Shown here: positions 3,936 to 41,233 of the stretch, in pieces
Layout: every line of letters starts with the position of its first letter
How positions within the stretch are numbered: position 1 is the stretch's first letter
From: Nitrososphaerota archaeon
GTDB taxonomy: Archaea; Thermoproteota; Nitrososphaeria; Nitrososphaerales; CADDZS01
Length of the DNA: 52,955 nt
Direction of reading: 5' to 3'
Assembly (NCBI GenBank): GCA_013288145.1
Contig: JABDCJ010000010.1
Location: 301-53,255, forward strand
Position numbers and translations under genes: made by a program
The notes under the pieces: model-generated
Database searches by the model: none
What the model was told of the DNA's origin: nothing
The model's input: only the letters and a program-made list of their open reading frames with translations

Positions 3936-4997
3936 ATGACCCGAGTAGGGATTGGTCTTATTGGTGCAGGAATAATGGGATCGCGGGGACATTTTCCCGG
4001 TTATATGGAGATCCCTACGCAAGCCCAAGTTGTTGCAGTTTGCGATAAAAATCAAAAAGCTGTGGATAGTATTGTGGAGAAATCCGGCGCGAAGGGATAT
4101 TCGAACTATGAGGATCTTATTTCAGATTCGTCCGTAGACGCAGTTGACATTTGCCTACCGCACAACCTTCACGGACCAGTCGCTCTGGCTGCACTTAGAG
4201 CGGGCAAGCACGTTATTGTCGAAAAACCCATCACTATAGACCTGGATCAGGCAGATCAAATTATCGCAGAGGCAAAAAAGAGAAAGCTCAAACTCATGAC
4301 GGCTGAAAACATGCGATTCATCAAGGCTTACGAAATAGCAAAGCGGCTCGTTGTTGATGGTACAATCGGGGAAATTTCGTATGTCAGAGGGTATACCGGC
4401 GGACCCAACGAAGATACTTCAGATCCTTCAAACTGGAGAATTAGGGCCTCAGAATCGGGCGGTGGAACAATAATGGATGATGGAATCCATATTTTTTACT
4501 TGTTCAGGTGGTTCGCGGGAGAAATTAAAAGCATCTATGCCAAAACAACCAAATTCGGAAAAAGTGAGATAAGCGAAGTGGAAGACAATGCCGTTGGTAC
4601 TCTGAAATTCTCAAACGGTGCTCTGGGTATTTTCGGTTTTTCGACTACTACGGCTGCACCATGGACTGAGGAGTTGCAACTTTTCGGTACTAAGGGCTCG
4701 ATCTTGGTTGATTTCCTTGCATCAAATCCACTTCGAGTTTACTCCATAGTCGGGAGATCGGACGACAAGTCCAAATGGTGGAGCCGCTATGGCGACGTCT
4801 CCTGGGAGTACCCGTTCATTGAACACTCTACGACCGAGTGGGTGACTCAGTCAATGCGCCGCGAGGTGCAGCATTTCGTTGAATGTATCCTGAATGACAA
4901 TGAACCGCTGGTCACAGGCGAAGACGGCAAAAAGGCCGTAGAGCTCGTTCTGAAAGGGTACGAATCAGCGAGAACTGGAAGGGAAGTTTTCCTCTAA
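3936..4997 (+). CDS. Gfo/Idh/MocA-family sugar dehydrogenase
   Basis: NAD(P)-dependent oxidoreductase for a sugar, inositol or glycoside hydroxyl. The Rossmann motif GxGxMG is at residues 10-15 (GLIGAGIMGS), the family EKP signature (KHVIVEKPI) at about 90, and the C-terminal half is the alpha/beta substrate domain. Length (353) is normal. It is strikingly similar to the protein at 5832-6896, including the last 50 residues (REVQHFVECIL, YESAR.GREV), so the two are paralogues flanking an SDR gene. An AT-rich TTTTAAG at 3892-3898 is a plausible promoter element. The substrate is unknown. Confidence 0.9.
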   Translation: MTRVGIGLIGAGIMGSRGHFPGYMEIPTQAQVVAVCDKNQKAVDSIVEKSGAKGYSNYEDLISDSSVDAVDICLPHNLHGPVALAALRAGKHVIVEKPITIDLDQADQIIAEAKKRKLKLMTAENMRFIKAYEIAKRLVVDGTIGEISYVRGYTGGPNEDTSDPSNWRIRASESGGGTIMDDGIHIFYLFRWFAGEIKSIYAKTTKFGKSEISEVEDNAVGTLKFSNGALGIFGFSTTTAAPWTEELQLFGTKGSILVDFLASNPLRVYSIVGRSDDKSKWWSRYGDVSWEYPFIEHSTTEWVTQSMRREVQHFVECILNDNEPLVTGEDGKKAVELVLKGYESARTGREVFL

Positions 4998-4998
4998 G

Positions 4999-5775
4999 CT
5001 AGAATTTTCCTTCCACCAGATACTTCGAAGCACTAAAGCCACCGTCAACCGGCAGGGTCACTCCTGCAATGAAAGAAGCCTCGTCCGAACTTAGAAACGC
5101 GACCGCCGCGGCTACGTCTTCCGGAGTACCTGGCCTTTTCACTGGAGTATTTGCAACCATCCATGACGAGCTTTTTGAGTCCTTGTCGATCTCTTTCATC
5201 ATCCCGGTACCGGGAACAAAGCCGGGCGCAACTGCGTTAACGTTGATCTCGGGACCGAGCTCAACCGCGAGAGATCTTGTAAACTGGATAATTCCTCCTT
5301 TCGAAGCTCCGTACGCAGCCCGTCCATTCTGACCCAGCAGGCCGCTTATTGATGCAACGTTCACGATTTTACCACGGTGTTTTTCTTGCATCATTGGCAC
5401 GACGGCCTTTACCATGTAGAACATTCCAGTCAGATTGACTGCAATCGTCCGGTTCCACTCCTCATTGGGTATCTCTAGTACCCTTCTAACATATCTTATT
5501 CCCGCGTTGTTGACCAGAACGTCTACCAGCCCGAAATGGTCTCTCACATTTGAAACACTCCGGATCACGTTTTCATAATCTGATACATCGGTCGGGAATG
5601 ATTTCGCCTTTCCACCCGAACTGACGATGATATCTTCCGTTTCCTTTGATGTCTTTTCGTCAAGGTCGAAAATCGCGACGCTGGCTCCCTTCTTTGCAAA
5701 ATGCTCAGCGATCCCCCGGCCGATTCCATAGCCAGCACCCGTTACGATTACCGTCTGATTGTCAAAACGAGTCAT
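4999..5775 (-). CDS. Short-chain dehydrogenase/reductase (SDR)
   Basis: Classical SDR of 258 residues. It has the nucleotide motif TGAGYGIG at 12-19, NNAG at 89-92, and catalytic S142, Y155 and K159 in the YxxxK motif. An aspartate at the end of strand 2 (IFDLDE, D37) favours NAD over NADP. The C-terminal GGF end is typical of glucose or gluconate dehydrogenase-like SDRs. It lies convergent to the upstream Gfo/Idh/MocA gene with one base between them, and follows its paralogue (5832-6896) on the same strand 56 bases downstream, so those two are probably one transcript. Likely role: oxidation or reduction of a sugar or keto-sugar intermediate. Confidence 0.88.
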   Translation of the reverse strand: MTRFDNQTVIVTGAGYGIGRGIAEHFAKKGASVAIFDLDEKTSKETEDIIVSSGGKAKSFPTDVSDYENVIRSVSNVRDHFGLVDVLVNNAGIRYVRRVLEIPNEEWNRTIAVNLTGMFYMVKAVVPMMQEKHRGKIVNVASISGLLGQNGRAAYGASKGGIIQFTRSLAVELGPEINVNAVAPGFVPGTGMMKEIDKDSKSSSWMVANTPVKRPGTPEDVAAAVAFLSSDEASFIAGVTLPVDGGFSASKYLVEGKF

Positions 5776-5831: not shown

Positions 5832-6896
5832 TCAAACGGGTACTTCTCTTCCAAGCCTCGCGGATTCATAGCATTTCAAAGATATTTCCATGTCCCGTCT
5901 TCCTTCCTCACCGCTAACGAGAGGTTTCTTGTCTTCTAGGATACATTCGACAAAGTGCTGCACCTCTCGTTTCACAGAGACTCGTTTCCACTCCAGGGAC
6001 GAGTGCGAAATGAATGGTTCCATCCAGCCCACGTCGCCGTATTGCGTCCACCATTTTGATGCATCCTCGGATCTTTCCTTGGTGGAAAATATTTGCACCG
6101 GACGCTCGGAAAGCATGTCAGCAACTATAGCGCCCTTCGTGCCGAACAACTCCAATCGTTCAGTCCAGGGCGATTCTGTGGTGTTTGTCAGGGTAAAGTT
6201 TGCCATCGCGCCATTCTGGAAATGAATGAGTCCCATCGCATTGTCCTCGACATCCTGGTAAAGATCTTTGAGAAATGTGGTGATAGAGGTTTGAACACTT
6301 TTCATTTCTCCAACCATCCAGCGAAGTAGATGGAATGTATGCACTCCGGCGTCAAACATTACTCCACCTCCGGCTGTTTGCTTATTGCCTATCCAGTTAC
6401 CGGGGCTAGAAAGCCAAGCCACTTCGGAACCACCGATGAACGTCCTTGCTGAGCAAATATTTCCGATCGCTTCCCTTGCGAGAAATTCACTGACGACTTG
6501 GTACGCTCTAACAAATCGGGTGTTCTCCGCGACCATCAGCTTTACCCCTTTGTCTTTTGCAGCCTGTATGACTGCATCAGCTTCGTCCAGCGTGGTTGTG
6601 AACGGCTTTTCGCAAATCACGTGCTTGCCTGCTTTCACCGCTGCAAGGGCGATTTTGCCGTGAAGAAAGTGCGGCACGCAGATATCCACGAGGTCTACAT
6701 CAGGGTCAGAGATTAGTTCAGAGTAGTCACTGAACTTCCTCGCATTGTGAATTCTGGCAGGCTGGTCCAGAACGGCGGGATCGGTATCGCAGATTGCTAC
6801 CAGTCTGGCACGCTCTGGAATTTCCTCGTAACCGCGAAGATGTCCCCAGGTTCCGACTCCGCCCAAACCTATTATTCCGACTCGAACTGTATCCAA
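5832..6896 (-). CDS. Gfo/Idh/MocA-family sugar dehydrogenase (paralogue 2)
   Basis: NAD(P)-dependent dehydrogenase of 354 residues with the N-terminal Rossmann motif GLGGVG, the CEKPF signature near residue 95, and a DAGVHTFHLLRW segment in the catalytic half. It is a close relative of the 3936-4997 product over the whole length, consistent with duplication and inversion around the SDR. It starts at TTG (6896), just before the Rossmann strand, and no ATG is better placed. It precedes the SDR gene on the same strand. The paralogues may act on two related sugars or on two positions of one substrate; that is inference. Confidence 0.88.
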   Translation of the reverse strand: MDTVRVGIIGLGGVGTWGHLRGYEEIPERARLVAICDTDPAVLDQPARIHNARKFSDYSELISDPDVDLVDICVPHFLHGKIALAAVKAGKHVICEKPFTTTLDEADAVIQAAKDKGVKLMVAENTRFVRAYQVVSEFLAREAIGNICSARTFIGGSEVAWLSSPGNWIGNKQTAGGGVMFDAGVHTFHLLRWMVGEMKSVQTSITTFLKDLYQDVEDNAMGLIHFQNGAMANFTLTNTTESPWTERLELFGTKGAIVADMLSERPVQIFSTKERSEDASKWWTQYGDVGWMEPFISHSSLEWKRVSVKREVQHFVECILEDKKPLVSGEEGRRDMEISLKCYESARLGREVPV

Positions 6897-7022: not shown

Positions 7023-7682
7023 TTGGACGAGGCCACAGCTGAAGAAAATCTCAGAAGAGAAACAATTGATTACGGTCTGAAATGCTACAAAGCAGGCTAC
7101 GTTACTGAAACAGAGGGAAATCTAAGTGCAAGATTGTCTGAAGATAGATTTCTCGTTTCACCCAGCCACGTACCGTACGAAAGACGCACTGTTGATGACA
7201 TAGTTGTAATCGATGCCGAAGGCAACGTGATCAAAGGTTCACGGAAGCCCACAACTGAAACGAGGATGCATCTGGCAGTTTACAGGGCGAGAACTGACGT
7301 GAATGCAATTGTTCACTCGCATCCAGTCTATTGCAGCATGCTGGCTGTCATGGACGAACCGCTGCGGCCCATTCTGGACGAGATGCTGCCTTATCTTGGA
7401 GGAGTGATTGAAGTCACGCGCTTTGCACCTTCAGGAAGCGCGGAAATTGCGGCAGAGTGCGTAAAGTCCCTCGGTAACAGAGCTGCGGTACTTTTGGCAA
7501 ACCACGGAAACCTGTGCGTCGGCAAGAACATGAGCCGGGCTTTTCAGACAGCCAAGTACATTGAAAAGTACGCTCAGATATACGTGCAAGCGCTCAGTCT
7601 GAACAGGGTGCGGCAGGTTCCGGATCAACGACTTAAACAGCAGGTCCCAATCTACGAACACCTGAAAACGATTGATTGGTAG
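7023..7682 (+). CDS. Class II aldolase/adducin-family enzyme
   Basis: Zinc-dependent aldolase or decarboxylase of the fuculose-1-phosphate aldolase fold, 219 residues. The expected ligands are visible: H98 and H100 (HSHP) and H161 (NHG), with E79 after PTTE as the likely catalytic acid/base. The early GN-LS motif (about 32-35) binds the substrate phosphate in relatives. Relatives include L-fuculose-phosphate and L-ribulose-phosphate enzymes and 3-oxo-tetronate-4-phosphate decarboxylase. The FGGY kinase 2 kb downstream could supply the phosphorylated substrate. It starts at TTG (7023); a T-rich TATA-like stretch lies at about 6970-6978. Confidence 0.87.
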   Translation: MDEATAEENLRRETIDYGLKCYKAGYVTETEGNLSARLSEDRFLVSPSHVPYERRTVDDIVVIDAEGNVIKGSRKPTTETRMHLAVYRARTDVNAIVHSHPVYCSMLAVMDEPLRPILDEMLPYLGGVIEVTRFAPSGSAEIAAECVKSLGNRAAVLLANHGNLCVGKNMSRAFQTAKYIEKYAQIYVQALSLNRVRQVPDQRLKQQVPIYEHLKTIDW

Positions 7683-7740: not shown

Positions 7741-8565
7741 ATGATGAATGGAGAAAAAAAGCTGGAAAAACTGATCATCACTGTCACCGCAAACGCTTCC
7801 TGGATTTTTCCGGAAACAAGAAATCATCCGCAAACAGCGGATGAAATTGCTGATGCCGTCTATGACAGCTATAAGGCTGGTGCGAGCGTTGCCCATATTC
7901 ACGCGGACGGCATTCAGAAGGAAACAAGCAAAAAGATCCGGGACAAGTGCGACATCCTAGTTCAATACGGGTTATCGGGTCAGTCACTTGAAATGAGAAG
8001 GCCGCTATTCGAGCAACATCCCGACATGATTTCAATAATTTTGACTCATCACGATGAACAGTTTACTAAGGAAGCGTTCAATGTTCTCCATCTAAAGTCA
8101 GAACTAGAGGAGTACAGCCGTCTCTGTCTAAAGTACGATGTAAAGCCCGAGTTTGAAGTCTGGCATACCGGCGCTTATTGGAACATGATATACCTCGAGA
8201 AAAAGGGGCTCGTGAAAAAACCGTACCTGTTGACGGTATTCTTCGGATGGCCGGGAGGTAGCTGGTCGCCGGTCGAGGCCGACGAATTCTTCCAGCGTGT
8301 CAAGTATATGCCTGAAGGTAGTGTGTACTCGACGAGCGTAATGGATCAGGATCAAACGAAGATCCTAATGCTTGCCATTGCAAGCGGAGGCCATGTGAGA
8401 GTAGGGACGGAAGATTATCCATTCATCTCGGAAGGAGTGCTCGCAAAGGATAACGCTGCGCTTGTCTCTAGGATTGCGAAGATTGCTCGCGATATCGGAA
8501 GGGAAATCGCTACTCCTGAAGAGGCAAGAGCTATGATCGGGCTCAAGAAGTCCGACTCAGTTTGA
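7741..8565 (+). CDS. Beta-keto acid cleavage enzyme (BKACE, DUF849)
   Basis: A TIM-barrel zinc enzyme of 274 residues. Family members react a beta-keto acid with acetyl-CoA to give acetoacetate and a new CoA ester. Zinc ligands H52 and H54 (AHIHAD) and E224 (RVGTED) are present, as is the GGHVRVG loop. Length is normal. The substrate-specificity positions cannot be assigned by eye. It lies 58 bases after the class II aldolase but has its own TATA box. In this neighbourhood a 3-keto sugar acid made by a Gfo/Idh/MocA enzyme would be a reasonable substrate; that is a hypothesis. Confidence 0.87.
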   Translation: MMNGEKKLEKLIITVTANASWIFPETRNHPQTADEIADAVYDSYKAGASVAHIHADGIQKETSKKIRDKCDILVQYGLSGQSLEMRRPLFEQHPDMISIILTHHDEQFTKEAFNVLHLKSELEEYSRLCLKYDVKPEFEVWHTGAYWNMIYLEKKGLVKKPYLLTVFFGWPGGSWSPVEADEFFQRVKYMPEGSVYSTSVMDQDQTKILMLAIASGGHVRVGTEDYPFISEGVLAKDNAALVSRIAKIARDIGREIATPEEARAMIGLKKSDSV

Positions 8566-8590: not shown

Positions 8591-9625
8591 TTACAGAGAA
8601 GTCTCTATAACTCCTTCCATTCTCTTTCCATGAAGATAATTCTGAATTTGGTTGGCCACTATCTCGGCCCCACGCAAAGGTACTTCCCTTGACGCCCCAG
8701 CAATGTGCGGAGTGACAAACACATTATCCATTGAAATGAGTGGATTATCCGGCGAAACCGGTTCGATTTTCATCACATCCAACGCTGCTCCAGCGATTTT
8801 CTTGGAGTTAAGCGCTTCCAGCAGTGCGTTTTCATCGACCAGACTTCCACGAGCTGAATTTATGAAAAATGATCCTGTCTTCATCAAGTCGAACTGCCTT
8901 TTGCTAAACATGTCCAGATTTTCCCTAGATTCCCGAGCGTGAAGAGAGATGAAATCCGATGATGAAATAAGAGCATTAAGCTCAACCGCCGTGATTCCTT
9001 GAACCTCGATTTTGGATTTTGGAATGAACGGATCGTAAACTAGAACAGACATGCCGAAAGCAAGTGTCCGCTTTGCAACTTTGAACCCGACGTTTCCGAA
9101 TCCAACTAGTCCGAGAGTCTTTCCCTCTAGTTCGTATCCGAAGAAACTATCGTACACGGATCGATCAAACTTTCCTTTGCTTCGCAGAAATAGGTTAGCC
9201 TTTGACAGATTCCTTGCGAGGATAATCATTACGCCTATCACGTAATCGGCAACGGCATCAGCATTCCTACCAGGAGCGGACACAACTTTGATCCCTCGGT
9301 TACTTGCTGCTCTGATGTCTACATTTACTGGTCCTCCCCTCGCGCAGCAGATCAATCTCAGATTGGGCGAGGCATCCATGACTTCTGCCGTGACCGGAGC
9401 ATCATGGACAACTAAGATCTCTTCATCTTTGAGCTCGCGAACTAGCTGTTTTGGATTGCCGGAGTACTCCCGGATTGATTTTTCAGATGGTGTGCTTGGA
9501 ACAAGCGAGTCGGATTCGTCCATTTGAATAAACCGAATGGCATTGTCCGATGACAAAAAAGCGAACGCCGACTGAAATATCGCCACGGGAACGTACAAGT
9601 CCCCGGCAACCAGAATTTTTTTCAT
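8591..9625 (-). CDS. D-isomer-specific 2-hydroxyacid dehydrogenase
   Basis: NAD(P)-dependent reduction of a 2-keto acid or oxidation of a D-2-hydroxy acid, related to phosphoglycerate, glyoxylate and hydroxypyruvate reductases. Visible motifs are the Rossmann GLVGFGNVG, the catalytic arginine in NSARGSLVDE, the glutamate in the MKIEP segment, and histidine in PHIAGAS. It has no ACT domain, so it is not a regulated SerA form. I place the start at ATG (9625, MKKILVAG); a TTG five codons upstream is the alternative. It converges on the BKACE gene and diverges from the FGGY kinase across a shared TATA element. Confidence 0.86.
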   Translation of the reverse strand: MKKILVAGDLYVPVAIFQSAFAFLSSDNAIRFIQMDESDSLVPSTPSEKSIREYSGNPKQLVRELKDEEILVVHDAPVTAEVMDASPNLRLICCARGGPVNVDIRAASNRGIKVVSAPGRNADAVADYVIGVMIILARNLSKANLFLRSKGKFDRSVYDSFFGYELEGKTLGLVGFGNVGFKVAKRTLAFGMSVLVYDPFIPKSKIEVQGITAVELNALISSSDFISLHARESRENLDMFSKRQFDLMKTGSFFINSARGSLVDENALLEALNSKKIAGAALDVMKIEPVSPDNPLISMDNVFVTPHIAGASREVPLRGAEIVANQIQNYLHGKRMEGVIETSL

Positions 9626-9656
9626 TTGCCTCGTTTGCAAAATCTAGAAAATCCCG

Positions 9657-9690: not shown

Positions 9691-11136
9691 ATGGAAAGTC
9701 CCGTGTTCTGCGTTATTGATATCGGCACGGGCGGAGCTAAATGTCAAGTCTTCGATGAGGAGGGTGCACTTTTGTTCGATGAAACTGCTTTGATAGATCT
9801 CAGACAGGACGGTACGGCGCTGAGCTTTGATCCTGCCGAAGTATGGCGAAATGTTTGCCTGTTGACAAGAAAAGCGGTCAAACAGTGCTCAAAACACGGA
9901 AAGAAGATTGTAACAGTTAGCTCGACGAGCATGCGCGAGGGCAATGTCTTCTACGACAAAGAAGGTGTGGAGCTTCTCGCAGTGCCAAATCTGGATGAAC
10001 GAGCATTCAACGAATCCGGAGAAATAGGGGCCTCGCTTGGAGAAGAAATCTATCTCACTTCAGGTCACTGGCCTTCCTCAATCTTTCTAGTTAGCCGGCT
10101 GAAATTCCTGAAGAAAAAGGAAAAGGAACTCTATCGCAAAGTAGACAGAGTTTCAATGATTAACGACTGGATCCTCTACAAGTTTTCAGGGAAAATTGCA
10201 ACCGAACCCACAAACGGATGTGAGACGGTTCTATTCAGCTTGAAGAAGAGGCAATGGAGCGACGAACTGATTGCAGAGTTAGGTTACGACAGGTCGATTC
10301 TTCCCGAGATCCTTGAATGCGGTAAAATTTTAGGGCAGATAGATAAGATAGCGATCCAAAAGACGGGACTCGATAGATCTACTCAAATTGTAATCGGAGC
10401 TGCAGATACGGAGGCAGCTGTCGCGGGATCTGGGCTTTTTGATCCAGGAGATATTGCAGCAGTTGCTGGCACTACGACACCTATTCAGGCCGTCGTTGAA
10501 AACCCCTTCCTAGACGAGGAGAGAAGGACTTGGACTTGCTGTCACGTTCTTCCGAATAGGTGGACCGTGGAAAGTAACGCGGGCGCGACGGGTCTTGTAT
10601 ACCAGTGGTGGTCTAACATGAGCGGTCTAAATTTTCCGGAACTCGATCAGGAAATTGAACAAGATAAGCCGGCTCCCGGAAAAGTAAAAGTCAATGTTGG
10701 GACGAGAGTTATGAATTCCAAACGTCCCCATCCTACGACGGGAAATATCAACATCAGTCCTTGGACACACCGTTCGGAAGTTAGCCTCGGTATTCTTGAA
10801 ACAAACTGCTTTAGCGTGAGGGCCAATCTGGAACAGCTCGAATCGGTACTCGGGAAAAGATTCTTAGAGTTGTATTTCTGTGGCGGAGCATCAAAAAGCA
10901 AGCTTTGGAGGAATCTCCAATCAAACATCTTGGGAAGGTCCTTGATCTCTTTTGTTAAAGAGGCGACCACAGGAAAAGGAGTCGCCATGCTCTCTGCGGT
11001 TGCGTTCGGATCATGCAAAAGCTTGAATGAAGCCTCAAAATCGTTTGCCGGACAAAAAATCAAGACAAAGCCTAACGGGCGTGCCTTTGAAATGTATGAG
11101 CCGTTTTACAATCAGTGGTCTGACGCAAATAGTTAG
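9691..11136 (+). CDS. FGGY-family carbohydrate kinase
   Basis: ATP-dependent sugar kinase of 481 residues. The N-terminal phosphate loop (DIGTGGAKCQVFD, about 9-21), the middle segment GAADTEAAVAG carrying the catalytic aspartate, and the C-terminal adenosine motif (FCGGASKSKLW) are all present. The family includes xylulokinase, gluconokinase, erythritol and L-fuculose kinases; the substrate cannot be assigned. The leaderless promoter is the shared TATA at 9657-9666. Together with the class II aldolase at 7023 it forms a phosphorylate-then-cleave pair. A TIM-barrel isomerase follows 90 bases downstream on the same strand. Confidence 0.88.
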   Translation: MESPVFCVIDIGTGGAKCQVFDEEGALLFDETALIDLRQDGTALSFDPAEVWRNVCLLTRKAVKQCSKHGKKIVTVSSTSMREGNVFYDKEGVELLAVPNLDERAFNESGEIGASLGEEIYLTSGHWPSSIFLVSRLKFLKKKEKELYRKVDRVSMINDWILYKFSGKIATEPTNGCETVLFSLKKRQWSDELIAELGYDRSILPEILECGKILGQIDKIAIQKTGLDRSTQIVIGAADTEAAVAGSGLFDPGDIAAVAGTTTPIQAVVENPFLDEERRTWTCCHVLPNRWTVESNAGATGLVYQWWSNMSGLNFPELDQEIEQDKPAPGKVKVNVGTRVMNSKRPHPTTGNINISPWTHRSEVSLGILETNCFSVRANLEQLESVLGKRFLELYFCGGASKSKLWRNLQSNILGRSLISFVKEATTGKGVAMLSAVAFGSCKSLNEASKSFAGQKIKTKPNGRAFEMYEPFYNQWSDANS

Positions 11137-14252: not shown

Positions 14253-14253
14253 T

Positions 14254-18425: not shown

Positions 18426-18529
18426 GAGGGTTCTTCGGAGACAGCGTCTCTGTTCTCCAAGATTTTTCCGCACTCTTAATTATTCCTGAAGAAAGCGAAG
18501 TCAGAAAAATTAATGATTTACCAGAGTTC

Positions 18530-24946: not shown

Positions 24947-25040
24947 TAACTCAATGGAACAACTCAATTAGTTACCGGATGAAGCTGAGAAGTTCCTAAC
25001 GATAAGACTGCGGATACTTGGAGTTGAAGACCGGGATGAA

Positions 25041-33098: not shown

Positions 33099-34208
33099 TT
33101 ACTCTTTTGAAAGACGGGGAATGATCTCCTTCCCGATCAGCCGGTAGTTCTCGCGATTAGATACGAAATTTGGAAAGAAGATCTGCGTCGCGCCGGCTGA
33201 GATGAACTTTTCAATCTTCGAAAGACACTCGTCCACAGATCCGAAAGCGATTATACGATCAACTGCCTTCTTCAAAGTCTCTTCGGGAATCGTGAAATTT
33301 TTGACCGCGTCGGTAAGTGCTCTATCAAAGGCTGGACCAGGGGTTGCAAGCTGGTAATCCAGCTCCTTCGGCAACGGTTCTGAAAGATCTTCTTCCCGAA
33401 TTCCGATTAGCGGCAACATGTACTGGCTCAAAATCAACGTGGTCTTTAGCGAAAGTTCGATATCGGGCATCAGCCTGTCCCTTTGTTCTTCATCGATGAA
33501 GATTATGGTCGGGATGCTCACGACGATGTCAACGTCCTCCGCGTGGCGTCCAGCATTCATCGCGGCGTCGCGGATGAGCTTCACTTTTTCTTCAAAAATT
33601 TCTAGCGTATTCTGAGACCCAGGATACCAGCCATCCGCGAGTTCGCCAGCAAGTCGAAGCGTGCCCTTGGACGAGAACGACCCAATGTAAATCGGTGGTC
33701 TAGGCTTCTGGATTGGGCCTAGGCTGAGATGGGCGTTCTTTAGAGAATAATATTCTCCCACGAAGTTGGCGGGTTGTTCGTATGAAGAACTCCACAAAAG
33801 CTTCGCTACTTGAATTATCTCTCGAAGCCGTTTGATGCGAGCCTTCTTTTCTTCCCAAGGTATGCCATAAGGTCTGGTGTTCATTATCTCGCCGGTGCCG
33901 ATACCGAGAATTGCGCGACCTCCAGTTAGATTGTCAAGCGTTGCAACAATATTCGCAATCTTTGCCGGATGTATTCTCTGAATGTCGGTCACGCCGGAAC
34001 CGAGGCGGATTTTCTGGGTTTTTGCCCCGATGTAGCCGAGAGTAGTCCAGGTGTCAGTAATCGCTTGAAGAGGGTGAATGTCAACGAGGTGATCCGGGAC
34101 CCAGACGATGTCAAAGCCGAGTTGTTCGGCTGTTACCCCGTCAGCTACTATTCTGGCAATATTGTCACCGGTCAGTTCTCTGGAAAAGGTCAGTGGTCTT
34201 CTTGCCAT
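33099..34208 (-). CDS. LLM-class (F420-dependent type) oxidoreductase 2
   Basis: A luciferase-like TIM barrel of 369 residues with VWVPDHLVDIHP near 37, GIGTGEIMN near 100 and the PPIYIGSFSSKGTLRLAGE strand. It belongs with F420-dependent dehydrogenases and reductases. Its ATG overlaps the stop of the Gfo/Idh/MocA gene by one base (TAATG), so the two are coupled. Pairing an F420-type enzyme with an NAD-type sugar dehydrogenase suggests a two-step redox change on the same substrate, for example an epimerisation by oxidation and re-reduction. That is inference. Confidence 0.86.
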   Translation of the reverse strand: MARRPLTFSRELTGDNIARIVADGVTAEQLGFDIVWVPDHLVDIHPLQAITDTWTTLGYIGAKTQKIRLGSGVTDIQRIHPAKIANIVATLDNLTGGRAILGIGTGEIMNTRPYGIPWEEKKARIKRLREIIQVAKLLWSSSYEQPANFVGEYYSLKNAHLSLGPIQKPRPPIYIGSFSSKGTLRLAGELADGWYPGSQNTLEIFEEKVKLIRDAAMNAGRHAEDVDIVVSIPTIIFIDEEQRDRLMPDIELSLKTTLILSQYMLPLIGIREEDLSEPLPKELDYQLATPGPAFDRALTDAVKNFTIPEETLKKAVDRIIAFGSVDECLSKIEKFISAGATQIFFPNFVSNRENYRLIGKEIIPRLSKE

Positions 34209-35341
34209 TAGTTAACATCCACCCATTTTTGAGAAGAACTAGATTTCTGAATTGCTTCGATTATTTGCGCCACTTTCCAGCCGTCGAAGAAATCTGGTTT
34301 CAACTGCGAGCCGGTGGCCACGGCATTAAGTACTTCGTAGATTTCGTTATTGAGCGAGTCCTGAAATCCTGCCCCGGATCCTGTAGCAGGAAATGAAAAT
34401 GAAGATCCGTAGGGGTGAATAGGTCCCATCAAGATTGTCCGGTGGCCTTGCAAGTCTTTGGGATCTTTACCAGAATAATAACTCAACTCGTTAGGTCTTT
34501 CAAAATTGAAATAAACCGAGCCTTCGGTTCCATCTACTTCAAAATCCAGGTAGACCTTCCTTCCAAGTGAAGCCCAGCTTGTTTCAAGTCGTCCCGGTGT
34601 TCCATTTTCAAATTGCATCAAGGCGCATGTGTAATCATCCACGTCCACATCAGCTGTTTCCCCCGGTGAATATGCGATTTTCCTTTCCTTGATGAAAGTG
34701 GATTGCATACCGCAAACCGAGCGAATCTCTCCTATGAGAAATCTGGAAATATCCAAGATGTGCGAGCCGAGATCGGCGATTGCGCCGCCGCCTGCTCTCT
34801 TGGAGTCGTATCTCCATGTAAACGGCATGTCCGGATTTGCTCCCCAATCTTCAAGAAAGCTCGTCCTGAACTGTGTAATCTTGCCAAGAGCTCCGTCACT
34901 GATCAATTTCTTAGCAAGCAATACGGCGGGCATCCTACGATAATTGAAGCCCATCGCATTAACAACACCAGCTTTTCTTGCAGCGTCGTACATCCTTCGC
35001 GCATCAGCAGCTGATGCAGCAATTGGCTTTTCGCAAAGAATTTGCTTGTCGTTTTCTGCAGCCTCAACCGCTACATCCGCATGAAGGTATGTCGGAGCGA
35101 CGATATCTACAAGGTCTACATCTGGGGATGAAACAAGGGTCTTCCAATCGGAATAATACTTTTGAAATCCTAGCTTCGCTGCTGCTTGGGAAGCGAGCTC
35201 TTCGGTGGCGTCGGCTACGATAGAAAAAACTGGCTTTACGTTTTCAAGAGAATGAAGCAAAGGGACAGATTCATACGCAATGATATGGGCTTTCGCGATT
35301 GCGCCGCCCCCGATCATTCCGATTTTGATTTGTTTCTCCAT
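34208..35341 (-). CDS. Gfo/Idh/MocA-family sugar dehydrogenase (paralogue 5)
   Basis: About 377 residues from the ATG at 35341 (MEKQIKIGMIGGGAIA). The frame continues upstream to 35401, but a TATA element (CTTTTAAG, 35368-35375) lies about 30 bases before the inner ATG, and the family N-terminus begins there, so I prefer it. It carries the Rossmann GGGAIA, CEKPIA and GFNYRRMPA motifs and the DLGSHILDISRFL catalytic segment. It heads the minus-strand run with the LLM and further Gfo/Idh/MocA and enolase-type genes, and is divergent from the second enolase-type gene. Confidence 0.88.
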   Translation of the reverse strand: MEKQIKIGMIGGGAIAKAHIIAYESVPLLHSLENVKPVFSIVADATEELASQAAAKLGFQKYYSDWKTLVSSPDVDLVDIVAPTYLHADVAVEAAENDKQILCEKPIAASAADARRMYDAARKAGVVNAMGFNYRRMPAVLLAKKLISDGALGKITQFRTSFLEDWGANPDMPFTWRYDSKRAGGGAIADLGSHILDISRFLIGEIRSVCGMQSTFIKERKIAYSPGETADVDVDDYTCALMQFENGTPGRLETSWASLGRKVYLDFEVDGTEGSVYFNFERPNELSYYSGKDPKDLQGHRTILMGPIHPYGSSFSFPATGSGAGFQDSLNNEIYEVLNAVATGSQLKPDFFDGWKVAQIIEAIQKSSSSQKWVDVN

Positions 35342-35367
35342 GCAGAATCTGCGGAATCTGAATTGAA

Positions 35368-35375
35368 CTTTTAAG
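35368..35375 (-). promoter_or_regulatory. TATA box for the 34208-35341 gene run
   Basis: On the minus strand this reads CTTAAAAG, centred about 30 bases before the ATG at 35341. It decides the start of that gene and probably drives the run LLM, Gfo/Idh/MocA and enolase-type genes down to 30711. Confidence 0.5.
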
Positions 35376-35457
35376 GATGTAGAGATGTGGAAGGCATTCA
35401 AATGAGTAACCCTTACCTTTTATTTGCAAAGAAATTTCAGAATAGACGAACTTTCCC

Positions 35458-36729
35458 TTGGAACTAAAGATCACCGACGTAAAAACGGCTACTGTCATCG
35501 GCAACTACTACTGGACTTTTGCAAGAGTGTACGCAGGCGACCTTTACGGAACAGGTGAAGGCTACACTGCACCGCAGCTCGAAAACATAATTCTCGAACT
35601 TGCCCCTCTTGTAATCGGAGAGAATGCGCTAGATCTCAATTACATTTATGACAAGTTACGCTGGGCGGCAGTTCCCTCGGGAGTTTCTGGAATGACGTAC
35701 CACGCCATTTCTGCGATCGAGATTGCAATACTGGATCTCCTCGGAAAGTACCTCAACGTTCCCGTTTACACTCTACTCGGTGGAAAGTTTCGAAACAAGA
35801 TCCGGATGTATGTAGACACTCACGCCGGAGAATCGCTCCATGCTCGTGACCGCGCTCTCCAGCCGGCTTTCACCAAATGGATGAAGGAAATCAAAAATCA
35901 GGAAGTAGATTCGCACGATCAGGAAAATCCGAACGACCCAATGTTCGGCAGATCGGCGGTTCAAAAATTTTCGAATGCGTACACGCCGAAGGCTTACGCG
36001 GACAGGGCAATCAAGATGAAGAACGAAGGCTTCACTGCCGTCAAATTCGATTTGGATGTTCCAACGCCGTACTCTACTAGCCTAGGGCAAAAATCAGGGT
36101 CATTGAATACCCAGGAAATAAAATATCTCGCGGAACTTGTTAGGGCAGTCAGGGATGGGGTCGGAGACGACACAGACATCATGTTCGACTTACACTGGAA
36201 GTATGACCTCGGAAGCTCGATCCGTTTGTTGAAAGCGATGGAGCCCTTCGGCATCATGTGGCTTGAAGATCCTCTTCCGCCAAACGATTTGTCGTTACTG
36301 AGCAAGCTGACCCAGATGACCACGACGCCGATTGCGAGCGGTGAAAACGTCTACAACAGGTACGGCTTTGCAAAATTGCTTGAAACCGGCTTGCCGATTA
36401 TGACTCCGGATTCTATCAAAGCCGGTGGGCTGACCGAGACGAGGATGGGTGCAATGCTTGCAGCTATGAAGGAAGTCGTTGTCTCTCCGCACAACGTGAG
36501 CAGTCCCATAGGCACGGTGGCTCAAGCGCACTTGGCTGCCTCGATTCCAAATTTCGGTGTTCTTGAATTTCACGGCCGCGACGTGCCAATATGGTACAAG
36601 CTCTCGAAAGGAAACTCCAACATTATCAATGATGGTTTCATTACTTTGAAGGATGAGCCCGGTCTAGGGGTTGAGCTAGATGAATCCGTCGCCAGAAACT
36701 ATGCACTGGACGACAAGTTTAACCTGTGA
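35458..36729 (+). CDS. Enolase-superfamily dehydratase-like enzyme 2 (423 aa)
   Basis: A longer enolase-superfamily member with metal ligands D244, E270 and E296 (FDLHWKYD, WLEDP, SGENV). The barrel bases are K196-F-D198 on one side and H246 in D-x-H; a further histidine sits in SPHNVSS. The D-x-H form and the extra loop around 135-175 (KWMKEIK to the SAVQKF segment) set it apart from the 30711 enzyme and resemble the mannonate/galactonate-type subgroup. It starts at TTG (35458), with TTTTATTT about 36 bases upstream. It converges on the MFS gene with an 11-base overlap. Confidence 0.85.
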   Translation: MELKITDVKTATVIGNYYWTFARVYAGDLYGTGEGYTAPQLENIILELAPLVIGENALDLNYIYDKLRWAAVPSGVSGMTYHAISAIEIAILDLLGKYLNVPVYTLLGGKFRNKIRMYVDTHAGESLHARDRALQPAFTKWMKEIKNQEVDSHDQENPNDPMFGRSAVQKFSNAYTPKAYADRAIKMKNEGFTAVKFDLDVPTPYSTSLGQKSGSLNTQEIKYLAELVRAVRDGVGDDTDIMFDLHWKYDLGSSIRLLKAMEPFGIMWLEDPLPPNDLSLLSKLTQMTTTPIASGENVYNRYGFAKLLETGLPIMTPDSIKAGGLTETRMGAMLAAMKEVVVSPHNVSSPIGTVAQAHLAASIPNFGVLEFHGRDVPIWYKLSKGNSNIINDGFITLKDEPGLGVELDESVARNYALDDKFNL

Positions 36730-37948
36730 CTGAATCTATCGATCTGGACTCTTGTCCCAATGCTCCAGTCTTGGACGCTAGAAAGCAGGTTGCGCCGATG
36801 AGAACGTAGATCAATCCCATCATTGCTATGGCGTACTGAGGTCCCCAGATTCCCCAGACGAAACTTGAAACCGATGCACCCACAAGGATGCCAACGTCTT
36901 CCGCAGCACCATACAGCCCGATAACCCGACCCCAGTATCCTCGCGGGACAAACGTCGTGAGGAGCGAAAGAGTAAGCGGTGTTATCGCCGCATAAACCGC
37001 TCCAGTTGCGATCGTTATGATCTCCACTTGAATGATATTCTGAGCGACCACAAGGAAGAGATAGCACAAACCTGTTGCAGTAAGGCATCCAATTATCCAT
37101 TTTACCGGTTTTCTTGAACCGAGAGATCCCACGATTGGCTGTGTAAGACCAGTTGACAGATTGAACGTTGCAATCACGATGCTAATGCCAATTACGCTTA
37201 CGGACAGGCGTGGTTCCCTAAGGAGAATGTTTGGAAAGATAAGGCTGTAGAAACCGTTTCCGCCAGCGGCGATCAGTCCTACGAGGCCGAGAACAATAAT
37301 GCCGCGCCTGTTGAAACGTTTTGAAGAAGGGGGATTTTGTTCGGTGTGGCCAATTTCGTCTGCCTCAATCTCTTCGATCTGGCTCTGAGATCTGTTGCCC
37401 CACCATATCGGGACAAATGATGCGAAAGTAATGGCCGCCGTCAAAACGAAAGAGTCTGAGATTCCGATCAGGCTTCCGAAAAGACCGCCAAGAAGAGATC
37501 CAAGGGTTGCTCCTATCGAATAAGTGAATCCGAGCATCCCGAATGTTCTACCTCTATCGGCATGTTTTGCTTGCTGCGCTATTGCAAGCCGGGGAAAAAC
37601 TCCGGCCCCACCCAGTCCCAAGCCGAGCAAAAGCTCGATCCCGAGCAGTTGAGTCAGATCGGCCGGTCTTGCAAAAAACAACAGAGCAACGGAAGTAAGA
37701 ACTACTGCAAGTGGCGGCATGACTCCTTTGATACCATACCGCTCGTATACGAAACCCCAGAGCGCTTCAAAAATTAGAAAGCTTATCCCGTAAGCTGCGA
37801 AAGCAAGCCCGATCCCGATTGCTGAAAGGTTAATCGAACTGAAATACTGCGGGAATAGTGGAAGAGTCATCCCCCTCGCGACCTGGAAGAGGAATAGAAA
37901 CGAGAAAAGAGGGAAGAACCTTCGGAATTCTAAAACTTTCGCGAGCAA
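36719..37948 (-). CDS. MFS transporter
   Basis: A 409-residue major facilitator with about 12 membrane helices in two halves joined by a charged cytoplasmic loop near 195-215 (NRSQSQIEEIEADE). The loop after helix 2 has YERYGIKG, similar to the MFS motif A region. It is probably a proton-coupled importer or exporter of a small metabolite of the island. It starts at TTG (37948). Its 3' end overlaps the convergent dehydratase gene by 11 bases. The substrate is unknown. Confidence 0.84.
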   Translation of the reverse strand: MLAKVLEFRRFFPLFSFLFLFQVARGMTLPLFPQYFSSINLSAIGIGLAFAAYGISFLIFEALWGFVYERYGIKGVMPPLAVVLTSVALLFFARPADLTQLLGIELLLGLGLGGAGVFPRLAIAQQAKHADRGRTFGMLGFTYSIGATLGSLLGGLFGSLIGISDSFVLTAAITFASFVPIWWGNRSQSQIEEIEADEIGHTEQNPPSSKRFNRRGIIVLGLVGLIAAGGNGFYSLIFPNILLREPRLSVSVIGISIVIATFNLSTGLTQPIVGSLGSRKPVKWIIGCLTATGLCYLFLVVAQNIIQVEIITIATGAVYAAITPLTLSLLTTFVPRGYWGRVIGLYGAAEDVGILVGASVSSFVWGIWGPQYAIAMMGLIYVLIGATCFLASKTGALGQESRSIDSVTG

Positions 37949-38170: not shown

Positions 38171-40249
38171 CTAACTTGCAGGGACGACTGTGTTGAGTAT
38201 TGCGGTTGTGGATTCGCCTGTGAACGACGTGTCCATGAGGAAGCTCTTAATCGCACTCTTGTCATAGGCAACTGAGCCCGAGGCGAATGCCAGCTTTGGC
38301 GAGGCCAACCAAATGTATGGAGCATCATTGTAGATTCTTTGATTCGCCGTGGTGCACAGCCCGATTTGTTGAGTTACATTGGTCGTGCTAAAGAACGAAT
38401 TGACGCATGCTTGGACTGTCGGGTTTCCATAGAGAGCATAGTCACCACCGCCAGGGTTCTGGTTATTGACGAATGCAACCCATGCATCGGCTGGAGTTGG
38501 TTCATTGGGCGCATAGCTCGGGTACCCCATCCACGTGAATTGGGCTAGCTGTTGAGAATAGTTAACGTCAAGCGCGAATGAATTGTACCCCGAGACGTAT
38601 GGTACAGTCAGTTCGGTGGCGGGTATCACGTTCACACTAACGGGGATGCCTATTGCGCCAAGATCCGCTTGAATAACCTGAGCTCCAGATATGCAGACAC
38701 CACAACCGGCCACTATGTCAAAGGCTAGTGGTTGAAGGGTCGCAGTATTAACTCCGGATGCTTTCATGTCTGCCATAGCTAGTGTCAGGTTGTAGCTGTA
38801 TGGTGGTAGGTTTCCCAAGTCGTAGAATTGACTGAACGCTGCGTACTCCGGCCCGACTAGTGGTGCATAGTCTCCAAAGAAAACTGATTGCCCGAGGTTC
38901 GTATAATTTATCGCGTGGACTATTGCTTGTCGTACGAGAGTGATATTTGTCGGGTAACGGAGCGTGTTCATACCCACTCCCTCGATGATCATTGATTGGT
39001 TCGGAATACTTGCTGCCCCGTATTTAGTCGGGTTCTGTTGTATTAGAGGCCAATCCTGAGCAAATATCGTGGCTATCTGAGCTGCTCCTGTGGACAGATC
39101 AGTGTATCTTACGAGATCGTCAGTTTTTCCGAAGACGAATATCGTCTTGTAGTGTCCAGGATCGACGTACGGATTGGTCGCAATCTGTGCTGCAGTCAGG
39201 TTCGCCCCCCAATAGTTAGTGTTCTGTACGAATTCTTCGTAACTGTTTGGAACGTATTTCGTCATAATGTACGGTCCAGTTCCAGGGACGATGACATTGT
39301 TGAAATTCGGATTATTACCCGTGGCGGGGGTGCCAAATCCTCCGTTGTTGACAATGAACTGAGAATCAACAATTACTCCAGTAAATTGTACCAAGATGTT
39401 TGGAAGAAATTCAAACGGTGCCTTAGTGTGTATGACCAGCGTATACGCGCTGGTGCAGTATATCGGTAATGATGTGTTCGACATTATCGATAGTAATTGT
39501 GAGGAAGGTTTTATGATTCCAGTCCCATTCATCATATTGACTGTAGACGCGCTGAAGTTCACGCCAGTGAAATTCAGGACATTGTAACCAGCCATAAAGT
39601 TCCCGGGGAACCCGTCAATCCAAGCGGTGGTGTACCATTGGGCCCAGATCTGATAGCAGTTGAAAGCGTCGCCGTTCGAAAAACTAACACCCTGTCTCAA
39701 ACCGAGGGTCCAAGTCTGCCCATCGGCAGCGACAGACCAATTCTGAGCTAAATCGGGTTCTACCACGACGGTCCCATTCTGATACAAGACATTGCCGTTC
39801 TCGGTTAGTACACTTTGGTAAACTGAGTCTAACCACCAATTACTTCCAGTGATGAAATTGGTCGCCACAAATGGACTAGCTCCATCGATTGGCAGGAAAG
39901 CTTCGTCGACAGTCAGCGTGTTGGAAGGAGCTGTGCTGCTACTAGACGACGAAGTAGACGAACTTGATGAGCTCGAAGAAGAGCTACTGCTCGAACTACT
40001 TGAACTCGAAGAGCTTGATGTAGAGGAAGAGGAAGACGAGGACGATGATGTTACCGGAACGCTCGACGCCGAAGATGATGAGGACGATGTCGTTGCGATT
40101 GTAGATGAAGATGAACTGGTCGTAGTCGAGCTTGACGAGGACGAAGACAGCGCAAGAGCCGCCGCCCCTGCGATCACGATAATTATGACTATGATTACAG
40201 CAATGATCACTCTGCTGATCGCTGCCACATTCCAAACATTATTTTTCAT
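38171..40249 (-). CDS. Family-5 (oligopeptide-type) ABC substrate-binding protein, orphan
   Basis: A 692-residue secreted solute receptor. Residues 13-34 are one hydrophobic segment after S12-R13 and could be a class III (pilin-like) signal or a membrane anchor; no lipobox cysteine is present. Residues 35-109 are almost only serine and threonine, a linker typical of archaeal surface proteins and likely glycosylated. From about 113 the SBP_bac_5 fold follows (DEAFLPIDGA, LAQNWSVAADGQTW, GTGPYIMTKY). It should bind a peptide, sugar or sugar oligomer. No permease or ATPase genes are in the window, so the partners must lie elsewhere. Confidence 0.87.
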   Translation of the reverse strand: MKNNVWNVAAISRVIIAVIIVIIIVIAGAAALALSSSSSSSTTTSSSSSTIATTSSSSSSASSVPVTSSSSSSSSSTSSSSSSSSSSSSSSSSSSSSSTSSSSSSTAPSNTLTVDEAFLPIDGASPFVATNFITGSNWWLDSVYQSVLTENGNVLYQNGTVVVEPDLAQNWSVAADGQTWTLGLRQGVSFSNGDAFNCYQIWAQWYTTAWIDGFPGNFMAGYNVLNFTGVNFSASTVNMMNGTGIIKPSSQLLSIMSNTSLPIYCTSAYTLVIHTKAPFEFLPNILVQFTGVIVDSQFIVNNGGFGTPATGNNPNFNNVIVPGTGPYIMTKYVPNSYEEFVQNTNYWGANLTAAQIATNPYVDPGHYKTIFVFGKTDDLVRYTDLSTGAAQIATIFAQDWPLIQQNPTKYGAASIPNQSMIIEGVGMNTLRYPTNITLVRQAIVHAINYTNLGQSVFFGDYAPLVGPEYAAFSQFYDLGNLPPYSYNLTLAMADMKASGVNTATLQPLAFDIVAGCGVCISGAQVIQADLGAIGIPVSVNVIPATELTVPYVSGYNSFALDVNYSQQLAQFTWMGYPSYAPNEPTPADAWVAFVNNQNPGGGDYALYGNPTVQACVNSFFSTTNVTQQIGLCTTANQRIYNDAPYIWLASPKLAFASGSVAYDKSAIKSFLMDTSFTGESTTAILNTVVPAS

Positions 40250-40408
40250 TCTTAGAAGGTACCTTTCAATCCGCGCTAGAGCCGACGTTATTTAGGATTT
40301 GCTACCATTAAGGAGCACAGCGCTAATCTGCGAAAGTCTTAATTCGCCCATTTTAGCGAAAGCTGTTTTCGATTTAGGCATAATAGGAGAAAGAATTAGG
40401 AGATTCTT

Positions 40409-41233
40409 CTAGAGAATCAAAATGGCCAATAGCCTGTCTACCGATTCTTTCGATTTCTTAACTACCGTGTCAACGTCCATGTCCCAGTATTTCTGATTGA
40501 ATAGTTCTACGGAAACCGGGCCTGCATAGTTTTTCCTTTTCAGCTCTTCGATGTATTTCTGGACACCCATTACTCCCTCAAGAGGAAACACTCTATCCGT
40601 ATCTACAACGGTTTCTATGCTGATTCCGGGAGCGTCATTGACATGAAAAGCAATCAGCTTGCTCGTAAGATCTGAAGGGAGATCTTCTATCGTCTCGCCG
40701 CTTCTGAACATGTGGAAGACGTCCAGAACTAGATCAGTCCCGCTTCGCCACCTTTTTAGACCTGCAATGGTTTTCTTAAGCGTATTCACCACCTTGTCGT
40801 TGTAGCTAACGTATTCGTAGCCCAACTTGATACCATTTTTTTCGGAAAGCTCGCCTAATCGATCCATGAAAAAATCAAATCTTTTCTCCACTAACTTTTC
40901 ATCCTGCCCGGCTTTGAAGTTCGCTGGATTCACAACCAAAATCCCCGAACCTATGCTGTTGCAAAGATCAAGAACTGCTTGCGATCGCTTTAACGATCCT
41001 GCCATTTCGTCTTCAGACATTATTGGATAATTATCAATGGCATTCAGACTGACGACCTCAATGTTGCTGTCTTTTATTACTGCCCTAATTTTCGATAAGT
41101 CGTCTTTTTTGATCGCGGCTTCGAGTCTGTCTATATCCAACTCAATCTGGGAGAATCCGTTCCTCCCGGCGCTTTCGATGAACCGTATAGTATCGGCTTT
41201 CATTACGGTTGCCTGGTTAATGCAGGGGATCAA
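40409..41233 (-). CDS. Xylose-isomerase-like TIM-barrel sugar isomerase/epimerase
   Basis: A 274-residue superfamily member with a complete metal site: E140, D171, H174, H197 and E243. The first 30 residues (INQATV, FIESAGRNGFSQIELD) follow the usual layout of these enzymes. It is the last gene of the catabolic island on this side, 36 bases after the biotin transporter gene on the same strand but with no functional link to it. Keto-sugar isomerase or epimerase, or a related lyase; the substrate is unknown. Confidence 0.84.
   Translation of the reverse strand: MIPCINQATVMKADTIRFIESAGRNGFSQIELDIDRLEAAIKKDDLSKIRAVIKDSNIEVVSLNAIDNYPIMSEDEMAGSLKRSQAVLDLCNSIGSGILVVNPANFKAGQDEKLVEKRFDFFMDRLGELSEKNGIKLGYEYVSYNDKVVNTLKKTIAGLKRWRSGTDLVLDVFHMFRSGETIEDLPSDLTSKLIAFHVNDAPGISIETVVDTDRVFPLEGVMGVQKYIEELKRKNYAGPVSVELFNQKYWDMDVDTVVKKSKESVDRLLAILIL

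Follow-up and report, generated by a model that had tools for sequence, protein, structure and literature searches.

An archaeal gene island of sugar and sugar-acid redox enzymes is probably composed of several modules

The 52,955-nucleotide stretch of DNA analyzed in this study (hereafter the window; contig JABDCJ010000010.1, positions 301 to 53,255, of the Nitrososphaerota assembly GCA_013288145.1) contains, at its positions 3936-41875, a continuous stretch made up chiefly of catabolism and transport genes. An original prediction, made from the sequence alone, had described 3936..41233 as an island serving a single route for oxidised sugars or glycosides. Our analysis suggests that the island is probably a set of several modules and not one pathway. 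The explanation that we favour, with a probability of about one half, is that the island serves catabolism in an archaeon which is related to the Nitrososphaerales and probably heterotrophic, and that it is built from separately distributed modules that would degrade glycosides and oxidised sugars. Gene content, conservation, the separate distribution of the modules and the conserved catalytic residues were observed directly. Two of the enzymes, designated TIM2 and Gfo3, form the part of the island most worth experiments.

Gene content and distribution of the modules

Pfam searches were carried out on 50 window proteins (E-values up to 0.001), and NCBIfam comparisons, which cover the best 25 models per protein, on 30 of these and later on a few more. 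Every enzyme class named in the original prediction was found in its place (Table 1): five Gfo/Idh/MocA dehydrogenases, four PF01261 TIM barrels, two MR_MLE enolase-superfamily proteins, two SDRs and two LLM enzymes, with one MDR dehydrogenase, FGGY kinase, class II aldolase (AldII), BKACE and UlaG-like MBL hydrolase each, and an MFS carrier and an SBP_bac_5 receptor for transport. The island further holds genes that had not been listed there, namely a D-2-hydroxyacid dehydrogenase (D2HADH), an LdhH/LutC-like LUD pair, a thiolase with an OB protein, an amidase, a P450, a D-serine-dehydratase/BhcC-like PLP enzyme and a conserved protein without a family. Only the two SDRs passed a curated NCBIfam cut-off, and the paralogues therefore appear to lie outside already assigned subfamilies, in line with the original prediction.

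Gfo1 and Gfo2 are 50% identical and Gfo4 and Gfo5 40%, and Gfo3 is 31-33% identical to the remaining Gfo proteins. On these identities, the five enzymes are not five independent types. The barrels are mutually distant (TIM1 and TIM2, 22%, E-value 1e-12; other pairs weaker or unalignable), and three kinds of metal site were found among the four by alignment.

A search of genome contigs with Gfo5 found one relative, the metagenome-assembled genome of Nitrososphaerales archaeon JOPF053 (hereafter G001). The GC content of the window (0.44-0.50) is compatible with the 46-48% of heterotrophic terrestrial Thaumarchaeota given in a table of PMC10640624. We compared 33 island genes (a 113-aa open reading frame at 19311 was left out) gene by gene with loci retrieved from relatives, in which a blank does not mean absence. 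Whole-genome protein searches covered Gfo5, TIM2 and TIM3, and whole-genome DNA searches covered two stretches. In G001, 30 of the 33 genes were matched at 43-91% identity, TIM1 solely as a 43% paralogue and the thiolase and OB genes on another contig; FUSC, TIM4 and BioY had no match in the G001 loci retrieved. The order P450-hyp275-SDR2-Enol1-Gfo4-LLM2-Gfo5-Enol2-MFS-SBP is unbroken in G001. The order Gfo2-AldII-BKACE-D2HADH-FGGY-Gfo3 is kept apart from the insertion of a TrmB gene and the lack of TIM1, and Gfo3-MDR is followed by two extra barrels, TIM2 and the LUD pair. The island contigs of G001 presumably adjoin one another.

Smaller sets were found in four other relatives, so that the neighbourhood is conserved, as the original prediction had expected of it. 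G251 carries TIM1-Gfo3-MDR-TIM2-LUD and also Gfo5-LLM2-Gfo4-Enol1. One contig of G256 carries MDR-Gfo3-FGGY-D2HADH-AldII-BKACE, with an LLM gene between D2HADH and AldII, a second one carries TIM2 and two extra barrels beside a solute-binding protein, and the LUD pair lies elsewhere. G248 has the Gfo5/Gfo4 pair, and G254 has the Gfo4 type with Enol2. Two groups keep their association between genomes: the window shares Gfo4-LLM2-Gfo5-Enol1 with G001 and G251, and Gfo3-MDR with these two and also with G256. Insertions and relocations of island genes were also seen between genomes.

The modules were also found apart. Module A (AldII, BKACE, FGGY, D2HADH, Gfo3, MDR and TIM2) occurs in G256 without a Gfo5-type match at 1e-60, and the whole-genome protein search found no TIM2 in G248 (Gfo4 and Gfo5 types) or G254 (Gfo4 type). 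Among 61 kin genomes including G001, the Gfo5 type (E-value up to 1e-60) was present in five, TIM2 (1e-30) in three and TIM3 (1e-15) in one, which is G001 itself. This distribution suggests that modules A and B are separable and that TIM3 is a patchy addition. Together with the distances between the barrels and their three kinds of metal site, it speaks against a single route joining both chemical logics.

Five Gfo genes in 37 kb compare with 0.18 expected from the density in G001 (16 in 3.3 Mb), and six of the 16 G001 matches sit on five island contigs that account for 2.8% of the G001 sequence (binomial, 3e-6). These figures overstate the significance, since Gfo genes were the reason for choosing the window, and resemblance to the window was the reason for choosing the contigs.

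The retrieved loci showed further genes. The TrmB sugar-specific regulator of G001 (L025:2308-3444) lies between the aldolase and BKACE genes, and the window showed no such gene. Beside the LUD pair of G001 stands an open reading frame of 814 aa (L047:3321-5765) with no Pfam match at 1e-5. Four-gene sets sized like ABC permeases and ATPases lie by solute-binding proteins in G256 (L050:1670-5750) and G001 (L055:6499-10528).

Module A: TIM2 and Gfo3

A search with TIM2 gave 76 homologues at E-values up to 1e-20, forming a block at about 59-93% identity followed by one at 42%. The few named sources in this block are Thaumarchaeota, Sigynarchaeota, Lokiarchaeia and Promethearchaeati. In an alignment of the window protein with 40 of the 75 other matches, His153, Asp186, His212 and Gln252 were invariant in all 41 sequences, as were His41, Asn191 and His223. 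The two metal-bound glutamates are catalytic in the ketose 3-epimerase (DTE) family. His153 and Gln252 replace the metal-site glutamates of D-tagatose 3-epimerases and of MJ1311, both in the PDB alignment and in our own; in the alignment with TM_0416, a gap leaves the first glutamate position of TIM2 ambiguous. The His/Asp/His arrangement is like the metal site of the Agrobacterium O-glycoside beta-eliminase AtOGE, but the position of the catalytic histidine is occupied by Gln155 (40 of 41).

The structure model of TIM2 (pLDDT 95.1) has as its nearest folds 3wqo (MJ1311), T. maritima TM_0416 and ketose 3-epimerases, with YcjR among the Foldseek matches. TM_0416, which we take to be IolO, is also the best PDB match by sequence. 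TIM2 shares its fold with the D-tagatose 3-epimerase family, including the 3-keto-glucoside 4-epimerase YcjR, but both catalytic glutamates of that family are replaced, by His and Gln. TIM2 therefore resembles a known epimerase in its fold but differs from it in the catalytic residues.

A sample of 398 genomes evenly drawn from the phylum, evidently without G251 and G256, gave one TIM2 match (G001) at E-values up to 1e-60, and none was found in viral contigs. Plasmids yielded 348 records of TIM2 homologues, all below 60% identity, and the two examined, from Agrobacterium (34%) and Sinorhizobium (29%), carry the usual Glu residues. By the sources named for its members, the family with the unusual active site is common to this module and to Asgard archaea. 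The Agrobacterium homologue lies on plasmid pAtCFBP6626a (L082) amid genes for Gfo proteins, PF01261-type barrels, solute-binding proteins, an ABC transporter and a zinc dehydrogenase.

In Gfo3, the usual catalytic Asp is replaced by Glu. An alignment of the window protein with 33 of 107 other matches, picked for spread, showed Glu in 28 of 34 sequences (Asp in five, Ser in one), whereas Lys102 and His186 were invariant. Its best PDB match is 3ezy, presumably T. maritima IolG. Homologues of Gfo3 and TIM2 (52-64% identity) were found on contigs of identical size (12988 and 16974) beyond the close relatives, where about 0.02 such coincidences would be expected above 10 kb. The size 12988 also occurs among the best 120 of 1287 Gfo5 homologues (41%). 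These coincidences point, indirectly, to a linkage of Gfo3 and TIM2 outside the close relatives.

FGGY kinase and class II aldolase are a standard phosphorylating end of ketose breakdown. We tentatively consider it possible, although the odds are against it, that TIM2 and Gfo3 act in relatives of the Nitrososphaerales as a new pair of archaeal sugar-transforming enzymes, Asgard archaea having TIM2 too and perhaps both enzymes. In such a pair, Gfo3 would make a keto-sugar, and TIM2 would carry out an undescribed lyase, hydratase or rearrangement step feeding the kinase and aldolase. BKACE, which reportedly acts in oxidative deoxyribonate catabolism, D2HADH and the LdhH-like protein could process keto- and hydroxy-acids. 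The LdhH-like protein matches NF045670, the model of the L-lactate dehydrogenase LdhH, nearly end to end (residues 8-696) with 545 bits, below the cut-off of 800. TIM2 and Gfo3 are a small, strongly conserved enzyme pair without an assigned function, and TIM2 is also found in Asgard archaea; both should be easy to express and screen.

Module B: levoglucosan dehydrogenase-like and enolase-type enzymes

The best NCBIfam model of both Gfo4 and Gfo5 is LgdA (NF052479), with 307 and 402 bits, under the cut-off of 650, and both proteins carry the catalytic EKP and DxGSH motifs. Gfo5 best matches PDB entry 6a3f (2e-100), whose sequence is the same as that of 6a3i, named levoglucosan dehydrogenase (LGDH) in a passage of PMC10066097. 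The likeness to the LgdA-LgdB1-LgdB2-LgdC pathway, as it is described in parts of PMC7676230 and PMC10066097, extends to the solute transporters nearby. The island differs from that pathway in that the neighbours of Gfo4 and Gfo5 are enolase-type dehydratases, an LLM enzyme and an MFS carrier, with no identifiable LgdB1; counting from Gfo5, TIM4 comes fourth and TIM3 lies farther away (no LgdB1 reference sequence was compared).

Acid-sugar dehydratases of the enolase superfamily use D/E/E metal ligands, KxD and DxH acid/base motifs and a His-Asp dyad. Enol2 has all of these as in its PDB relative 2qq6, and it fails the curated dehydratase cut-offs (best 181/750 and 163/311 bits). In Enol1, the metal ligands and the dyad are present. 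SDR2 scores above the cut-off of the gluconate 5-dehydrogenase subfamily. By this enzyme content, module B fits a non-phosphorylative breakdown of sugar acids. Such a breakdown has been proposed for cultured SAR202 bacteria, whose growth on fucose and rhamnose was tested (in part of PMC10444878).

TIM3 and the role of glycosidases

The best PDB match of TIM3 is 8BVK (E-value 4.9e-26, residues 36-245), the deposited entry of AtOGE according to an excerpt of PMC10628242. The Mn ligands of AtOGE given there (His132, Asp163, His189 and Glu233) are kept as His141, Asp173, His199 and Glu240 in TIM3. The catalytic His134, whose replacement in H134A inactivates AtOGE (same source), corresponds to His143 of TIM3 within a YHNH motif. 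All of these residues are also present in the G001 copy. TIM3 is therefore a candidate AtOGE-type beta-eliminase, as far as conserved residues can indicate. A structure model of two sequences (AlphaFold; pLDDT 47) was discarded and not used. Homologues of Paenibacillus, Natribaculum and Halocatena carry the same metal and catalytic residues, which suggests that TIM3 is part of a wider family reaching the haloarchaea. Plasmids gave 225 homologue records, three of which were examined. For the two haloarchaeal ones (Natribaculum and Halocatena), the gene table, which is incomplete, showed no Gfo gene within 17-19 kb; for the third, from Paenibacillus, the record gives no genes in the corresponding region. 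A Gfo gene adjoins TIM3 in G001 (L055:18107-19000). A separate barrel of G248 (L019:13178-13936), with an HPH motif resembling the HxH of AtOGE, lies near Gfo-like and MDR-like genes; the contig is the one with the Gfo4 and Gfo5 homologues.

The Agrobacterium OGE operon, as presented in part of PMC10628242, consists of a glycoside dehydrogenase, AtOGE, AtHYD and a Gfo reductase. TIM3 resembles AtOGE over most of its length, and the island has further PF01261 barrels and Gfo proteins. Unlike that operon, however, the island is not compact, TIM3 in the window does not stand by a Gfo gene, and there is no nameable hydratase. Of the oxidised-sugar and glycoside route originally proposed, the 3-keto logic is supported by the conserved active site of TIM3 and by the nearest relatives of Gfo4 and Gfo5, but its combination with the other logic in one pathway is not. 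Our literature searches, which did not extend to subscription papers, brought up no publication about a 3-keto-glycoside eliminase from archaea, and the word archaea does not appear in the main texts of PMC10066097 and PMC10628242.

The island had also been characterized by its lack of glycosidases. This holds for the window, where none of the 50 proteins matched a glycoside hydrolase family, but not for the island type. The G001 island contains two GH4 proteins (L047:1388-2770 and L055:14056-15423), both nearest to the alpha-glucosidase AglA (507 and 481 of 650 bits), and a lack of glycosidases is therefore not a defining feature. GH4 was present in two of nine kin genomes. According to a passage of PMC7676230, GH4 glycosidases operate via 3-keto intermediates, and the four Lgd enzymes jointly act as a GH4-type enzyme.

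Proposed functions of the island

The explanation with several modules would comprise three arms, in which we infer every substrate, each redox direction, the product assignment and the heterotrophy of the host. In arm C, LGDH-type Gfo enzymes would act on a glycoside by oxidising its 3-OH, and TIM3, as an AtOGE-type metal enzyme, would beta-eliminate the aglycone or partner sugar. In arm B, Gfo4 and Gfo5, an LLM enzyme, the lactonase-like MBL hydrolase, SDR2, Enol1 and Enol2 would convert aldoses via (keto)aldonates to 2-keto-3-deoxy acids with no phosphorylation. In arm A, Gfo3, MDR and TIM2 or TIM1 would rearrange a second keto-sugar, which the FGGY kinase would phosphorylate and the class II aldolase would cleave; BKACE, D2HADH and the LdhH-like LUD protein may connect the resulting beta-keto and 2-hydroxy acids to central metabolism.

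Several points weigh against this explanation. Nearly all enzymes score far under the curated cut-offs, and their activities may therefore differ. The amidase, the thiolase and OB pair, the PLP enzyme and the P450 have no obvious role in sugar breakdown. The kin genomes being drafts, absent modules may be gaps. TIM3 occurs in just one of the 61 kin genomes, the window copy has no adjoining Gfo gene, and the MBL hydrolase was matched solely in G001 among the retrieved loci; from the distribution of TIM3 and MBL, arm C would not be a core feature.

An organic-matter lifestyle has been inferred from genomes for the non-ammonia-oxidising relatives of ammonia-oxidising archaea (in a section of PMC10640624). 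If the host is such a heterotroph, the island would supply a testable archaeal AtOGE-type beta-eliminase, LGDH-type dehydrogenases and acid-sugar dehydratases.

Alternative explanations

A SAR202-like pool of parallel paralogous oxidative enzymes without a common pathway, captured into one expandable region, is an unlikely alternative. It would account for the insertions and relocations between genomes, and a similar enzyme mix is found in SAR202. There, according to parts of PMC10444878, enolase-superfamily, dehydrogenase and flavin enzymes form parallel oxidative sets, with enolase-superfamily and NAD(P)-dependent dehydrogenase paralogues in group I and flavin-dependent monooxygenases in group III. 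The island, however, is archaeal and clustered and includes Gfo/TIM-barrel and kinase/aldolase genes, whereas the flavin enzymes and enolases of SAR202 belong to different groups; moreover, the two gene groups that stay together (Gfo4-LLM2-Gfo5-Enol1 and Gfo3-MDR) argue for joint function within modules. We regard one new linear pathway, in which 3-keto glycoside opening would be combined with acid-sugar dehydration, kinase and aldolase, as quite improbable. Most of the island is common to G001, TIM3 suits a glycoside-opening step, and the contig size 12988 recurs for TIM2, Gfo3 and Gfo5. Nevertheless, the modules occur without one another, and sugar routes end either with kinase/aldolase or with enolase-type dehydratases, the two not being successive steps.

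Module A could also represent a Thermotoga-type inositol or 5-keto-gluconate route, in which Gfo3 and MDR would oxidise the ring twice and TIM2 would epimerise 5-keto-L-gluconate. The inositol cluster of T. maritima has the gene order IolG/IolM/IolN/IolO. Among the NCBIfam models, Gfo3 scores best with IolG and TIM2 with IolO, IolM matches MDR, and the best PDB matches of TIM2 and Gfo3 are those taken above to be IolO and IolG. Against this stand the scores, which miss the IolG, IolM and IolO cut-offs of 355, 450 and 300 at 157, 181 and 98 bits, IolM being only the sixth-best model of MDR, and the loss of both catalytic glutamates of TIM2 in all 41 aligned sequences. The MBL hydrolase gave no IolN-named match at E-values up to 5 (the library was not checked for an IolN model), and in the loci of G001 its gene lies away from module A. 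We therefore rejected membership of module A in this route, which seems rather improbable. An IolO-like epimerase is used in an L-glucose-type route that was also considered (described in part of PMC12632266); the same low scores and changed active site speak against it. It is very improbable that the redox enzymes build or modify cell-surface glycans or lipids. Gfo1-3 do match UDP-GlcNAc 3-dehydrogenase with 136-155 bits (cut-off 450), and a P450 is present, but no glycosyltransferase or nucleotidyltransferase was found among the scanned island proteins, and SBP and MFS in the window as well as TrmB and GH4 in G001 indicate uptake and catabolism.

Features of the island and neighbouring genes

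Table 1. Coordinates of island features. Paired scores are bits/NCBIfam cut-off; percentages are identities to matches in relatives.
Feature	Positions	Strand	Basis and remarks
Gfo1, Gfo/Idh/MocA dehydrogenase	3936..4997	+	PF01408/PF22725; EKP, DxGxH present; 82% G001
SDR1 dehydrogenase	4999..5775	-	Pfam; passes NCBIfam subfamily PRK07231 (255/215); 88% G001
Gfo2, Gfo/Idh/MocA dehydrogenase	5832..6896	-	Pfam; adjoins AldII in G001
AldII, class II aldolase, module A	7023..7682	+	PF00596; HxH, NHG present; 82% G001, 72% G256
BKACE, beta-keto acid cleavage enzyme, module A	7741..8565	+	PF05853; HxH, HVRxGxED present; 89% G001, 70% G256
D2HADH, module A	8591..9640	-	PF02826; Arg, Glu, His motifs; 74% G001, 65% G256
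FGGY sugar kinase, module A	9691..11136	+	PF00370/PF02782; nearest model autoinducer-2 kinase (256/528); 66% G001, 52% G256
TIM1, PF01261 barrel, E/D/H/E metal site, module A	11227..12084	+	Pfam, alignment; 79% G251; 41-43% paralogues in G001, G256
Gfo3, module A	12151..13218	+	Pfam; Lys102, His186 kept; Glu182 in place of the usual Asp
MDR zinc dehydrogenase, module A	13218..14252	+	Pfam; adjoins Gfo3 in window, G001, G251, G256
TIM2, archaeal PF01261 family, His153/Asp186/His212/Gln252, module A	14254..15102	-	Pfam, alignment, structure model
LUD + 4Fe-4S + CCG protein, LdhH-like	15693..17819	-	545/800; 84% G001, 77% G251, 67% G255, 64% G256
LUD-domain partner, LutC-like by domain	17841..18473	-	Pfam; pairs with LdhH-like protein in G001, G255, G256
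FUSC_2 membrane protein	18530..19204	-	Pfam; no match in retrieved loci of relatives
OB-fold protein and thiolase pair	19969..21521	-	Pfam; separate contigs in G001, G251
Amidase	21638..23005	+	PF01425; 75% G001
LLM1	23118..24140	+	Nearest family F420-dependent G6P dehydrogenase (178/210); adjoins amidase in G001
TIM3, candidate AtOGE-type 3-keto-O-glycoside beta-eliminase	24170..24967	-	Best PDB match 8BVK
PLP enzyme, D-serine dehydratase/BhcC-like	25041..26129	-	Pfam, NCBIfam (263/690); 89% G001
MBL hydrolase, UlaG-like (lactonase-like)	26678..27472	+	Pfam; HxHxDH present
Cytochrome P450	27504..28856	-	PF00067; 79% G001, 58% G255
Conserved protein without family (hyp275)	28893..29720	-	Pfam/NCBIfam; 68% G001
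SDR2, gluconate 5-dehydrogenase subfamily	29882..30655	+	NCBIfam 308/279, passes
Enol1, candidate enolase-superfamily acid-sugar dehydratase, module B	30711..31835	-	Pfam, PDB alignment; adjoins Gfo4 in G001, G251
Gfo4, levoglucosan dehydrogenase-like, module B	31885..33054	-	Pfam; NCBIfam 307/650
LLM2, module B	33099..34208	-	Pfam, NCBIfam
Gfo5, levoglucosan dehydrogenase-like, module B	34208..35401	-	NCBIfam 402/650; 6a3f 2e-100
Enol2, candidate enolase-superfamily dehydratase, KxD and DxH motifs, module B	35458..36729	+	Pfam, NCBIfam, 2qq6 alignment
MFS carrier	36719..37948	-	Pfam
SBP_bac_5 solute-binding protein	38171..40249	-	Pfam; homologues on G001 contig C58 and, in G256, next to TIM2
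TIM4, PF01261 barrel, E/D/H/E metal site	40409..41233	-	Pfam, alignment; no match in retrieved loci of relatives

The conserved protein without a family is 275 aa long and sits between the P450 and SDR2; it has a C-terminal CxxC, and zinc-ribbon models match it at chance level. Just upstream of the island, at 950-3448 of the window, an adenylate/guanylate cyclase-TPR fusion is followed by a cyclic-nucleotide-binding protein, and the two may form a signalling pair.

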